From an uncultured Chlorobiaceae bacterium (GTDB taxonomy: Bacteria; Bacteroidota; Chlorobiia; Chlorobiales; Chlorobiaceae), in NCBI GenBank assembly GCA_903840935.1, contig CAIMHT010000015.1, positions 1 to 64,000 of the forward strand: a stretch of DNA of 64,000 nt, in the 5' to 3' direction. The position numbers were made by a program, and so were the translations under genes. The first letter of the stretch is position 1. Each line of letters begins with the position of its first letter. Under the pieces are notes generated by a model. The model was not told the DNA's origin and did not search any database. It saw nothing but the letters and a program-made list of their open reading frames with translations. This document shows, piece by piece, positions 41,658 through 46,863 of the stretch.

Positions 41658-41728
41658 GGCGAAGTGGCCGAGTGGTTAGGCAGAGGTCTGCAAAACCTTG
41701 TACAGCGGTTCGAGTCCGCTCTTCGCCT
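41658..41728 (+). tRNA. tRNA-Cys (GCA)
   Basis: GGCGAAG...CTTCGCC acceptor stem; anticodon loop CTGCAAA; T-arm GCGGTTCGAGTCCGC. Confidence 0.93.
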
Positions 41729-41736
41729 CAAGCAAC

Positions 41737-41767
41737 AAAAAAAGCCTGCGTGATGCAGGCTTTTTTT
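41737..41767. terminator. Bidirectional intrinsic terminator between tRNA-Cys and the convergent sugar operon
   Basis: AAAAAAAGCCTGC-gtgat-GCAGGCTTTTTTT; A7/T7 on both sides. Confidence 0.9.
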
Positions 41768-41789
41768 GTATTAACAACTCCCCTCCTCG

Positions 41790-42947
41790 CTATCCGATTT
41801 TTTTTGAACCGGAGACGATGGCCTGAACAAGCTTCTCAATCGTTACGTCATCCATCAGTACAGGAATGTTCAGACAGATACTGCTGCGCAGCATGATACC
41901 GGTTTTCGGCCAGAGCGCTTCAAGATCGGCATCGCGGTACCGGTCATATTCTCCAAGAAGGTGTCCCCATACCCCGGCATAGTGCCAGTCGAGCGCTTCA
42001 GGCAGAATCTTGGTACCGAAACCATGTTCCATCAGGTGTGCTTCAAACTGCAGGGCTGCTTCACGATCCCTGACCCTGAAAATAAGGGTATCTCCCTGTG
42101 AGCCAGCTTCATCACTGAAAGGTCTGAAGATAAGGTTGTCAAGATGACGGATTGACTCCTTGATTTTCTTTTTGTTCTCTCTTGATTTTGAAAGAATGGC
42201 ATCAATTTTTGCAAGCTGTGCCAGTCCGATTGCCGCAGTCACTTCACTGAGTCGCAAGTTAAGCCCTTTTGAGCGTCTGGGATCTTTACCTCTCGGTAAA
42301 CCGGGCTGGTGCATGTGACCATGGTCAGAGAACTCCGCTGCGCGGTCATAGATCTCTTTGTCGTTGGTTACAATGATTCCGCCCTCACCGGTGTGAAGCG
42401 TCTTGCCTGCATCAAAGGAGAATGAGGCAACACTCCCGAAAGTGCCAAGTTTCCGGCCTTTGAAAGTGGCTCCAAGCGCTTGTGCAGCATCCTCAATCAA
42501 TATCAGGCCATGCTTGCGGCAAAGCGCAGACAGCTCATCCATTTTTGGTGAAGCCCACATGGGAATTGCCACCACGGCTTTCGTGGCTGGTGTAATAGCT
42601 TTTTCAACCTCAAGCGGGTCAAGATGATAGGTTTCATCAAGCTCAACCGGCACGGGCAGAGCGCCAAGCGCACTGATAGCCTCGACTGGAGCGATAAAGG
42701 TCCATGCTGTTGTGATAACCTCATCACCAGGGCCAATTCCTGCACCAGCAAGGGCGCAATGGATTGCAGCGGTACCGGAAGAGACCGCATGGGCATACTT
42801 TACACCCATCCATGCAGCAAATTTCTCCTCAAACTCCCTTGCCTTGTAATTGCCACCGCCGTAACGGTATAAATTGACTTTTTCGTGACTGAAAAGCTCC
42901 TGTATTTCAGCCAATTCCTCACTTCCGATCAGTTCTGCGCCAGCCAT
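41790..42947 (-). CDS. DegT/DnrJ/EryC1/StrS aminotransferase, KdnA-like
   Basis: SSGTAAIHCALAGAGIGPGDEVITTAWTFIAPVEAI; EDAAQALGATFKGRKLGTFGSVASFSFDAGKTLHTGEGG; FSDHGHMH...GLNLRLSEVTAAIGLAQLAKID, resembling KdnA. Confidence 0.85.
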   Translation of the reverse strand: MAGAELIGSEELAEIQELFSHEKVNLYRYGGGNYKAREFEEKFAAWMGVKYAHAVSSGTAAIHCALAGAGIGPGDEVITTAWTFIAPVEAISALGALPVPVELDETYHLDPLEVEKAITPATKAVVAIPMWASPKMDELSALCRKHGLILIEDAAQALGATFKGRKLGTFGSVASFSFDAGKTLHTGEGGIIVTNDKEIYDRAAEFSDHGHMHQPGLPRGKDPRRSKGLNLRLSEVTAAIGLAQLAKIDAILSKSRENKKKIKESIRHLDNLIFRPFSDEAGSQGDTLIFRVRDREAALQFEAHLMEHGFGTKILPEALDWHYAGVWGHLLGEYDRYRDADLEALWPKTGIMLRSSICLNIPVLMDDVTIEKLVQAIVSGSKKIG

Positions 42948-42969
42948 AATAGGTATCCCGCTCTTTTTT

Positions 42970-44100
42970 TTAGGTTAATTGAGTAACAACAGCCAGTGCT
43001 GATTCTTCAGTAAATGCAACCGGATTACCCGAAAAAGAGCCTTTCAGGGCTTCTGATGCGTTACGGGCAAATTCGGCTACATTACCCTTTCCATACCCGT
43101 AAGGGACAAGTGAAGGAATCTGAAGTTGCCGATAGAGTTCATCCATCTCTTCAAGCAGTTCGACCGTAGCCTCTCTGGGCGAAGGGGTTGAACGCATGGG
43201 ATTAAGGAGTGCATATTTTTCATATCCGTGAAGGTGGTTATAGCGCATTACCTCCTTGAGAAAAATCGCGCCGGCAAGACCGTGCGGTACACGGTGTTTT
43301 ACGCCGAGATAGTAGGCAAAACCATTGGTCGGACCATCTCCGGAGTTCATGAGTGCTGCCGTGCCACAGACACTGCCAATGGCAAGATCAAGTCGCGACT
43401 CTGCCCGATCAAGCTGGTTTTGTTGTAACGCATAAAAGGTTCGCTGGAATCCCTCTACAGCAAAAATCCTGCTCAAAGCGGTATGCTTTATCGAACCGAA
43501 ACTGTCAACGCAATGCACAAGACTGTCCATAGCCGACGCAATAACGCTTTCAAGAGGTGCCGTCATGGAGAGTTGCGGATCAATAACAGCTTTTTTGGGG
43601 AAATTCTTCCGGCTGTTAATGCCAAGCTTGCGCCCCTCGACTTCATCAATAAAGACCGCATTAAAGCTGATTTCCGCCCCACTTCCAAGAAGGGAGGGTA
43701 CCGTTACAAGCGGCAGAGGATCGTTCACACCGGAAGGAAATCCTTTGAGCGAAAGAGCCGGGACGGTGTTGGTCATAAGCAGTGCAACCCCTTTGCCAAG
43801 ATCAAGGGTACTGCCTCCGCCTATGGCAACTATGGCGTCAGGTGGATTACTTCGGAAAAATTCAGCCACCGTTTCAAGATGGGTATAGGTCGGCTCTCCG
43901 CCGAATTCGTTGCAATAGAGCACGGCATTGGGATATCCCGAGGTGATGTTCCTCAATACCTCCTGAAAATAGAGCGTTCCGGCTATGTTGGCATCATAGA
44001 CAATGCCAGGCTTCTTCACCGATAATTGTGCCAGATGCTCATTCAGCTTCAGTGCCTCGTTAACCCCGATAACAAGATCGGTAGATAAAAAAAAATTCAT
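42970..44100 (-). CDS. Iron-containing alcohol dehydrogenase, KdnB-like (Kdo 8-oxidase-type)
   Basis: AIGGGSTLDLGKGVALLMTNTVPAL; TVPSLLGSGAEISFNAVFIDEVEGRKLGINSRK; family III ADH metal-site His-containing segments. Confidence 0.8.
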   Translation of the reverse strand: MNFFLSTDLVIGVNEALKLNEHLAQLSVKKPGIVYDANIAGTLYFQEVLRNITSGYPNAVLYCNEFGGEPTYTHLETVAEFFRSNPPDAIVAIGGGSTLDLGKGVALLMTNTVPALSLKGFPSGVNDPLPLVTVPSLLGSGAEISFNAVFIDEVEGRKLGINSRKNFPKKAVIDPQLSMTAPLESVIASAMDSLVHCVDSFGSIKHTALSRIFAVEGFQRTFYALQQNQLDRAESRLDLAIGSVCGTAALMNSGDGPTNGFAYYLGVKHRVPHGLAGAIFLKEVMRYNHLHGYEKYALLNPMRSTPSPREATVELLEEMDELYRQLQIPSLVPYGYGKGNVAEFARNASEALKGSFSGNPVAFTEESALAVVTQLT

Positions 44101-44112
44101 AAAATCAGTATT

Positions 44113-44826
44113 CTAATGGTTCTGTTGATTTGTATCCTGAATGCCCAATTTTTTTTTATACAAGTAATACTCAATCAAATCTATTTCCTCGACCGTATCA
44201 ATCTCCCAAGTTTGCCAGAACTCCATTTCATAGGTAGAGAGCTTTTGACCGATTCTGTTGCCATAAGTAACAAGAGTTTCAGGCTTGAAAATATAGATCG
44301 AGCCATTTTCAATGAACTGCGTTGGGCGATCCTGTCGCATACCGCGATTGCGGTAATCAAAATTGACACTCTTCCACTTCCCTTCCCTTGATTCCCACAA
44401 GGTAAGATCATCGGCTCTGGTGACTGAAATGAGCGAATCAGCTTCTTCCCTAAAAAACAGTTCTACCGCACGATCAATATCTCCCGGCTTCCGCAAGGGT
44501 GAGGTGGCTTGAAGAAAGACAATGGTACTGAGCGGCATATTGTACTCCCGTTCAATAACCCCTGCGGCATGCAAGAGAGCCGATTCTGAGCTTGCCTTGT
44601 CGCCGGCAAGTTCCGCAGGGCGCACAATTACCTCCGCACCATACTCAGAAGCAACTTTTGCTATCACCTCGTCGTCCGTTGTCACAAAGACTTTTTCAAT
44701 GCTTGTCGATGTCAATGCCTGCAAAACAGTCCACGCCAACAAGGGTTTTCCTGCCACGGGATAAATATTTTTCTCTTTCAGCCCTTTCGATCCGCCTCTT
44801 GCCGGAATGATTGCTACGGTGTGCAT
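44113..44826 (-). CDS. NeuA-like acylneuraminate/CMP-sugar cytidylyltransferase
   Basis: [49 protein letters not shown]. Confidence 0.9.
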
Positions 44827-44848
44827 AATGAATAGTTGTTCTTTGTTG

Positions 44849-45805
44849 TCACCCCTCTATTACCTGCCGGCAGACATCAGCGATTTTTTTTGCTGCAGAT
44901 TTATTCTGTAACGGCGTCAGCGCTTTTAACTCTTCAGGGGGCAGGCTGCAATGCACAATTTTGTTAAGGGCGGATGCCACAAAAATGGTCGATGAAAACT
45001 GTGCTATCAACATCATAGAGTTGGCTATCATCTCTTCGGTTTTTCCTTCACTGAAAACAAGGCTCCGGGGAGCGTAGCGTTCAATTTCCCTTGTCGCCCG
45101 TTCGATATTTTCATTGGGATGCAATTTGAAAAGAAGCTGACGGCCATCGGCTATTTCAAGATACTTTCTGATGTTTTTGAGGCGATTTTCGTAAATAAAC
45201 GTTTCACGGTTATCCGATGTACAAACAAGCACGTAATCGTGCCAGGCAAAATCGTTCTGAAGATACTGTTCGCAATTGTCAAAGTTTGGAATGCTTGTCA
45301 CCTCAATCTTTGCCGGACTTACCCCTTTGCGGATAAACAGATTACGATAGCCTTCACTGGCAACACAAAACTTTTCATAGGCATCAGATAACCCCGTAGT
45401 GGCCGTACCCGCAATCCAGCGAGGCATCCACTGGAAGTTTCGTGCAAGATGATAGAGAAGAGTTTCCGGTTCAGTCATTCCTTCCTGTACCAGCACAATT
45501 TTTTTTCGCCGGATATGTTTCGGTACAATAAGATCCGTACAGGTCACCACTAAATCATAAGCATGCGCAAGACCTCCAATATCAAGTTTCAGATGGTTGT
45601 GACGCAGATAATGAAGTGTACGCTCCGACCGCTTGCGGCCCATGATCGTAAACTCAAGAAGTCCTCGGTCACTTGCAGATCCGAGGAGACCATCACTGAA
45701 AAACGGAGAAAAATACTGCTCATAATCGGTCAGAAACCCAGCGATCTGATGCATCTGGGTGGTCTGGTTCATCGAACCGCAAATAAATAATACTTTCTTT
45801 TTCAT
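44849..45805 (-). CDS. GT-B-like glycosyltransferase with sialyltransferase/polysialyltransferase-like motifs
   Basis: [21 protein letters not shown] (HP motif) and AQFSSTIF (SS/T motif); operon context with CMP-sugar synthetase. Confidence 0.55.
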
Positions 45806-46863
45806 AACTCTCCGTTCTTCACCCCTTCCGCATCATGCAGATGAACCCCTGAAAAAAACATGACACCATAACCGAAACTGTACCAGAGTAGCTCCTTGAA
45901 TCGCCTCAAAAGGACAAATGCGCCATAATCAGCGAAATTATGCATGCCGAGCGCTTGAAAAAAGAGACGATACCCTAACTCCTGTACTCCGAGTCCTGAT
46001 GGGATGAAAAAAAAGAGAGCCCGGAGCATGGTAATTGTTGTATCCATTGCAAGCACCTGTAAAAAAGAGAGCTCGACACCAAGCAATCGCAGAATAATAT
46101 AACTTTCAAGTGCAAGCATGAACCATGCAAGAATATAAATGAGTAATACAAAAAGCAGCCTGCCAGCAAAAGGCGCGTCAAAACTCTTCAACTCCTCATC
46201 GGTATCAAGAAATCCCGCCTCCTTTGCAAGCAACCATGTCTTCACCTTTTTGAATGGCACCAACATCAAAAATCTATGCACATTCTGTGCAGCGTTTCCG
46301 TTAAGCAAAAGAAAAAGTGAAAAGAGAAAAATGAGAAAAACCATTGTACCAGCTCCAACCATAATATAACCAAGCACAGCAAAGGGAAATATCGGAATGG
46401 AAACTGCCTGCAGAAGCGAAAAACCGGCCATGGCACCGATAATGGTATAAAGTCCCTGTGCCACACCAAGCATGAGTTTGCGCACAGCGACACTTGCAAC
46501 GCCTGCAGGAAGTGGAATTCCAATAAATCGGTGACAAAGAAAAGGACGAAGAGGTTCGCCGACAGCCATCCCTGCCGGAAGTGTCATGGATATGGTTTCG
46601 GTTATAAACTGTATTCTCAGCAGTTTTGAAAATGATATTGCTGTTATGCTTGGAGGAAAAACTCTTATCCATGCAAACGTTTCCAAAAGATGAAGCATCA
46701 GAAATGGCAAGAGGATAAATGCCGAGGAAAAGCCAATTGAGGAGATCCGCCCAATCACACCAGCAAAATCAATTTGACGAAACTGAAACACAACCAGGGC
46801 AATACCAAGAGCAAGACCAATATAACCGACCAGAGTACTGCTGGCTTTTTTCGTCAAACCCAT
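45802..46863 (-). CDS. Flippase-like integral membrane protein (LPG synthase TM / UPF0104-like)
   Basis: Multi-TM protein; FFIPSGLGVQELGYRLFFQALG and PAGMAVGEPLRPFLCHRFIG motifs. Confidence 0.8.
   Translation of the reverse strand: MGLTKKASSTLVGYIGLALGIALVVFQFRQIDFAGVIGRISSIGFSSAFILLPFLMLHLLETFAWIRVFPPSITAISFSKLLRIQFITETISMTLPAGMAVGEPLRPFLCHRFIGIPLPAGVASVAVRKLMLGVAQGLYTIIGAMAGFSLLQAVSIPIFPFAVLGYIMVGAGTMVFLIFLFSLFLLLNGNAAQNVHRFLMLVPFKKVKTWLLAKEAGFLDTDEELKSFDAPFAGRLLFVLLIYILAWFMLALESYIILRLLGVELSFLQVLAMDTTITMLRALFFFIPSGLGVQELGYRLFFQALGMHNFADYGAFVLLRRFKELLWYSFGYGVMFFSGVHLHDAEGVKNGEL

Follow-up and report, generated by a model that had tools for sequence, protein, structure and literature searches.

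A conserved five-gene operon of the Chlorobiaceae and its probable place in a NeuB-dependent pathway for a terminally aminated nonulosonate

Which sugar is made by the compact five-gene operon found at positions 41790-46863, on the minus strand, of a 64,000-nucleotide stretch of DNA (the window; contig CAIMHT010000015.1) from an uncultured member of the Chlorobiaceae? In Shewanella, an iron-containing alcohol dehydrogenase (Fe-ADH), KdnB, and a DegT aminotransferase, KdnA, convert 3-deoxy-D-manno-oct-2-ulosonic acid (Kdo) into its 8-amino derivative Kdo8N (PMC5125639, PMC6357163 and PDB entry titles). As the operon combines genes of these two families with a NeuA-like cytidylyltransferase, a glycosyltransferase (GT) and a flippase-like protein, an initial annotation proposed that KdnB/KdnA-like enzymes here turn Kdo into Kdo8N, which a NeuA-like enzyme then activates for a dedicated transferase. 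Our analysis points to a different origin of the sugar. The operon probably encodes the later steps of a pathway that is divided between loci and shared by the whole family, and whose product is a nonulosonate aminated at its terminal carbon, activated with cytidine monophosphate (CMP), and made by a NeuB-type synthase rather than derived from Kdo. This reading draws on the computed gene content of the operon, its conservation, the clades in which its enzymes fall, and the association of both the GT and the NeuA/Fe-ADH/DegT trio with NeuB. The window genome is a draft (2.02 Mb, 100 contigs, 85.7% complete), and the five genes are, in order of transcription:

45802..46863, minus strand: gene 1, flippase-like; 353 aa, LPG_synthase_TM/HpnL-like membrane protein, putative flippase or lipid-linked GT partner
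44849..45805, minus strand: gene 2, GT; 318 aa, 4-bp overlap, GT-B fold, no named Pfam family
44113..44826, minus strand: gene 3, NeuA-type CMP-nonulosonate synthetase; 237 aa, gap of 22 bp, CTP_transf_3
42970..44100, minus strand: gene 4, iron-ADH-family oxidoreductase; 376 aa, gap of 12 bp, PF00465/PF25137, proposed oxidase of the nonulosonate terminal alcohol
41790..42947, minus strand: gene 5, DegT aminotransferase, sister to KdnA; 385 aa, gap of 22 bp, proposed terminal-carbon transaminase

The five co-directional reading frames, their short gaps or overlap and their families (LPG_synthase_TM, a GT without Pfam family, CTP_transf_3, Fe-ADH and DegT_DnrJ_EryC1) were confirmed as first described, and the KdnB/KdnA-like motifs quoted at that time are present in the sequences.

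Affiliation of the operon enzymes

The aminotransferase speaks for Kdo as a substrate, KdnA being its closest group. Its best PDB match is the Kdo8N transaminase KdnA (5k8b, 273 bits; next entry, 165), the DHGH and WH[YF]..xWxHL segments are common to both, and the lysine that binds pyridoxal phosphate, K182, is retained. We built a tree of Chlorobiaceae proteins and three relatives, 14 Bacteroidota KdnA-type proteins, KdnA of Shewanella and further DegT enzymes. In it, the Chlorobiaceae sequences join the three relatives in one clade (support 97/96), with the KdnA clade (98/94) as its sister (100/99 for the two together), and do not group with perosamine or other sugar-nucleotide transaminases. 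Because the enzyme is a sister of KdnA and not of perosamine type, the idea of an amino-ulosonate survives. However, it lies beside the KdnA clade and not within it, and near the WH[YF]..xWxHL segment the KdnA side mostly has an [FY]W[FY]-type stretch where the Chlorobiaceae side has GTK/GVK..P.

The assignment of the Fe-ADH to KdnB did not hold. KdnB (5k8c) stands far down its list of matches (59.7 bits; 65 with a profile), and in the tree the enzymes of Chlorobiaceae and of NeuB loci form a clade (96/95) apart from that of the Bacteroidota KdnA loci, which represents KdnB (100/100). Moreover, KdnB-type enzymes have four metal ligands, and the third ligand histidine is replaced by Asn259 in the operon enzyme. 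Asparagine occupies this position in all Chlorobiaceae proteins aligned and in a gammaproteobacterial relative (L260), glycine in three further relatives (L174, L194 and L195), and histidine in the enzymes of KdnB type and from E. coli with which they were compared. The separate clade and the missing ligand led us to reject the Fe-ADH as a KdnB orthologue.

The synthetase, by contrast, is NeuA-type and not KdsB-like, as the initial annotation had it. Its best PDB matches are CMP-N-acetylneuraminic acid (Neu5Ac) synthetases (125 bits, against 36 bits for KdsB), and in the tree it falls among the synthetases from NeuB loci and away from KdsB (100/99), although it scores under every NCBIfam equivalog cut-off. 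A KdsB-type synthetase is absent from the operon, KdsB being encoded at another locus.

Concerning the GT, we found no Pfam match, and a PDB sequence search with a GT profile gave chance matches only; neither search linked it to a known sialyltransferase family. Its AlphaFold2 model (mean predicted local distance difference test score 75.8, predicted template modelling score 0.75) has a GT-B fold. Foldseek matched it, at query TM-scores of ~0.4-0.6, to UDP-GlcNAc 2-epimerases, TagF, the bacterial polysialyltransferase 5wcn and the CMP-bound capsule enzyme 8a0c. Use of a CMP-sugar is compatible with this model: 5wcn and 8a0c share its fold, but they show no sequence-family match to it, and the UDP-GlcNAc epimerases match it equally well. 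A dedicated GT and flippase for a CMP-activated amino-ulosonate are plausible as first proposed, but a Kdo-derived donor is not supported.

NeuB within and beyond the Chlorobiaceae

It is literally true, as was remarked at the outset, that the operon contains no NeuB- or KdsA-type synthase, but both are encoded elsewhere in the genome. A NeuB-family synthase is present in all 11 Chlorobiaceae genomes checked, one of which (G013) has a second, different NeuB; that of the window genome matches PF03102 with 254.8 bits and has no SAF domain. In G000, a haloacid dehalogenase (HAD) family phosphatase precedes NeuB and the pair lies between ppa and htpG; the same pair occurs in the other Chlorobiaceae genomes examined. 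(The "1 TGA" of the G000 NeuB match is, from the reading-frame coordinates, the gene's own stop, and an internal stop was rejected.) The phosphatase is above the KdsC-family cut-off, and its nearest model is 3-deoxy-D-glycero-D-galacto-non-2-ulosonic acid (KDN) 9-phosphate phosphatase, with 147 bits against a cut-off of 180. In eight Chlorobiaceae genomes searched we could not find any NeuC above its cut-off nor any convincing NanE, for which matches were weak, partial and in long frames. A sugar derived from N-acetylmannosamine is therefore disfavoured, and these results favour a non-N-acetylated, KDN-like product.

A separate Kdo route is also encoded in the genome, with KdsA, KdsB (above cut-off) and WaaA, and the lipooligosaccharide (LOS) of Chlorobaculum tepidum contains Kdo according to 1,2-diamino-4,5-methylenedioxybenzene (DMB) HPLC (PMC12285230), so that the substrate required for Kdo8N is made. 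Beside KdsA, the KdsC-like HAD protein of Chlorobiaceae (L169:6503-7120 (-); L105-L108) has lost the nucleophile Asp of DxDGVL (PVDGVL, SLDGVL) and is a predicted pseudo-phosphatase; the NeuB-linked phosphatase may therefore serve Kdo-8-phosphate too. KdsA itself is apparently split over two frames in one single-contig genome (G016 C1:2232049-2232812), through a sequencing error or a frameshift.

Outside the family, the GT is tied to NeuB. Among 309 Bacteroidota genomes other than Chlorobiaceae, 54 have a GT orthologue and 56 a SAF-less NeuB: both are present in 54, GT only in none, NeuB only in two (one of them 81% complete) and neither in 253 (Fisher p 2e-58, a value that ignores shared ancestry). 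The pair occurs in 14 families, some of which (f6, f10) include genomes with both genes and genomes with neither, and of 29 distant Bacteroidota loci 22 have the two as neighbours. The corresponding cluster (L139-L167) runs GT, CTP transferase, split transketolase, class-III aminotransferase, short-chain dehydrogenase/reductase (SDR), HAD, NeuB and a fatty-acid-hydroxylase-like gene, the transketolase pair being absent from some; we found no description of it. In Chlorobiaceae the flippase and GT are kept, the synthetase is a different one in the tree, and Fe-ADH and DegT replace the remaining cluster genes. In our reading, one amination module has been exchanged for another.

The trio NeuA/Fe-ADH/DegT leads to NeuB as well. 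Scanning GTDB genomes with an Fe-ADH alignment, we kept 80 loci, of which only four are relatives outside Chlorobiaceae; three of these hold the complete trio, each near NeuB. A gammaproteobacterium (L260) has the trio in the same order (DegT 64% and NeuA 49% identical), directly followed by a gene (L260:12319-14565) for a 748-aa fusion of CBS, NeuB, SAF and xylose-isomerase-like TIM-barrel domains. A metagenome-assembled genome (MAG) of Bacteroidetes UBA2364 (L174/L193) has the trio with NeuB and NeuC above cut-off in the locus, and a Thermoplasmatales MAG (L194, a 13-kb contig) has it with NeuB and NeuC, above cut-off, on the opposite strand. The fourth relative, from Methanomicrobiales (L195), encodes Fe-ADH, NeuA, NeuB above cut-off and, judged by similarity only, a NeuC-like protein, and no KdnA-like DegT. 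Polysialyltransferase-family genes are found in L260 and L174, and LegC/PseC-like aminotransferases in L174 and L194. L260 is the nearest relative of the Chlorobiaceae in the DegT, Fe-ADH and NeuA trees alike, a pattern to be expected of genes that travel together. Kdo synthesis is not known from archaea, and the Thermoplasmatales trio should thus not act on it, with the caution due to a short contig from a MAG.

Clusters of KdnA-KdsB-KdnB type do exist in other Bacteroidota (L175-L178, L180, L185, L188), which suggests Kdo8N outside Shewanella, but they look different from the Chlorobiaceae operon. An amino-ulosonate is likely from the KdnA-sister aminotransferase and the NeuA-type synthetase. 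Its origin from Kdo, on the other hand, is unlikely in view of the clade and ligand of the Fe-ADH, the links of GT and trio to NeuB, and these different Kdn clusters.

Candidate pathway and alternative readings

In the NeuB-dependent pathway that we prefer, the SAF-less NeuB and its adjoining phosphatase, at their own locus, would condense phosphoenolpyruvate with a hexose-6-phosphate and remove the terminal phosphate; mannose-6-phosphate would be the simplest choice and would give a KDN-like acid. By analogy with KdnB, the Fe-ADH would oxidise the freed terminal CH2OH to an aldehyde, which the DegT enzyme, by analogy with KdnA, would transaminate to a terminal amine. The NeuA-type enzyme would then activate the sugar as a CMP donor. 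The GT-B enzyme may next attach it to a lipid or glycan acceptor, and the LPG_synthase_TM protein would assist by presenting or flipping the product. We infer the substrates, the direction and order of the Fe-ADH and DegT steps, and the acceptor. As a lead for the latter only, an aminoglycosphingolipid was reportedly described by Jensen in 1991 in Chlorobium limicola f. thiosulfatophilum 6230 (cited in PMC11762602).

Such a pathway would combine elements of known systems. As in the Shewanella Kdo8N pathway, an Fe-ADH and a KdnA-related transaminase with the DHGH and WH[YF] segments would feed a cytidylyltransferase, which is KdsB-type in Shewanella and NeuA-type here, besides the differences in DegT clade, Fe-ADH clade, third histidine and NeuB link. 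With the CMP-KDN pathway of Bacteroides thetaiotaomicron (BT1714 synthase, Kdn-9-P phosphatase and CMP-Kdn synthetase; PMC6200933) it shares a NeuB-family synthase, a KdsC-type phosphatase and a NeuA-type synthetase, but Chlorobiaceae add the Fe-ADH/DegT pair and their own GT and flippase, and their synthase and phosphatase are unlinked from the synthetase. Loci for Neu5Ac or legionaminic acid (NeuB, NeuC, NeuA) employ the same NeuB and NeuA families, and in L174, L194 and L260 the trio is part of a NeuB locus or close to one, whereas Chlorobiaceae lack a NeuC above cut-off or a convincing NanE and have a NeuB without SAF domain.

Several points weigh against the NeuB-dependent pathway. In Chlorobiaceae, NeuB and the phosphatase lie outside the operon, and these two and NeuA are all under every NCBIfam equivalog cut-off. 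The functions of the members are predictions from sequence comparison, and the Fe-ADH, short of one canonical metal ligand, may differ in chemistry from KdnB. The evidence for the trio beyond the Chlorobiaceae comes from a small number of genomes, and two of these are MAGs on short contigs. Finally, in the GT/NeuB loci of other Bacteroidota the synthetase is a different one, and a class-III aminotransferase and an SDR are present, usually together with a split transketolase; since the partner enzymes differ, the GT family may not be bound to a single donor.

Next to the Kdo8N route weighed above, Fe-ADH and DegT might act before NeuB or at another carbon, for example by supplying NeuB with an amino-hexose, and leave the amine elsewhere on the nonulosonate. 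The divergence of the Fe-ADH clade at the metal ligand would fit this, as would the LegC/PseC-like aminotransferases and NeuC of L174 and L194. We nevertheless consider it improbable, as the phosphatase adjoining NeuB implies a 6-phosphorylated hexose, which would block earlier oxidation at C6, and the KdnA-like segments of DegT favour an ulosonate substrate. Very improbable is a pathway without any ulosonate, in which CTP-transferase, Fe-ADH and DegT make another CMP- or CDP-activated amino compound for a glycolipid: the sub-threshold scores of the synthetase, the breadth of PF02348, which spans other CTP transferases, and the match of the GT to TagF, a CDP-glycerol enzyme, would allow it, but the synthetase is NeuA-type by sequence and tree, NeuB is associated within and beyond Bacteroidota, and two trio loci contain polysialyltransferase-family genes.

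A more specific extension of the NeuB-dependent pathway, possible though somewhat doubtful, is that Chlorobiaceae make a 9-amino-9-deoxy-nonulosonic acid by setting a Kdo8N-style oxidation/transamination pair on a NeuB pathway of KDN type. The GT/NeuB core, which recurs in at least 14 other Bacteroidota families with a different, exchangeable amination module, would then form an undescribed surface-glycan or glycolipid system. Our literature search returned nothing relevant on Chlorobium neuraminic acid, on KdnA/KdnB in this context or on 9-amino nonulosonates. No sialic-acid-like sugars in green sulfur bacteria are described in the literature searched, even though the pathway seems to be common to the Chlorobiaceae as a core trait. 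If the proposal is true, a whole photosynthetic family may carry an undescribed sugar, for which the missing upstream enzymes are now named. It also illustrates how the closest homologue of known function (here KdnA, which suggests Kdo8N) can be a misleading guide to annotation where genomic partners differ. The prediction is testable in the model species C. tepidum, whose LOS has already been analysed with DMB, a reagent that labels alpha-keto acids generally.

Conservation and boundaries of the operon

We surveyed 86 Chlorobiaceae genomes for orthologues, and 20 wide and 76 named Chlorobiaceae loci for gene order. The GT is found in 83 genomes and a full or partial DegT orthologue in 80 (full-length copies 79-100% identical). 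The order flippase-GT-NeuA-Fe-ADH-DegT, which the initial annotation had suggested looking for in relatives, is kept in all 20 wide loci, and all five genes are present in 66 of the 76 named ones; this conservation indicates that the arrangement is not due to chance. All 20 wide loci have an AMP-ligase gene upstream, and in 18 of them tRNA-Cys follows no more than a few kb downstream. The ten partial loci (five without DegT, three without flippase and GT, two without flippase) probably reflect contig ends, as checked for G006 and G013 only, where loss of the DegT gene was rejected because the contigs end there. Given that gene order and orthologues are conserved family-wide, the operon is a core trait of green sulfur bacteria, and a strain-specific or variable O-antigen locus is rejected. 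Gene 1 (PF03706, 87.8 bits; HpnL model TIGR03476, 90 bits, under the cut-off of 195.65) lies upstream of the GT in all 20 wide loci and in 8 of the 29 distant Bacteroidota loci.

A scan for promoters, with 6 found against 7.4 expected, was uninformative. Downstream of the operon lie two further features:

41736..41769 (about), both strands: bidirectional intrinsic terminator; 15-pair hairpin common to the operon (minus) and tRNA-Cys (plus)
41658-41729, plus strand: tRNA-Cys, with the hairpin directly behind it

The terminator scan did not pick up this hairpin; the probable reason is that the T-run is itself paired in the stem. The strong terminator first described is nonetheless real (-21.9 / -22.4 kcal/mol, z -7.8 / -7.1) but does not belong to the operon only: as the hairpin is equally stable folded on the plus strand and adjoins tRNA-Cys, the terminator is bidirectional and shared with this gene.

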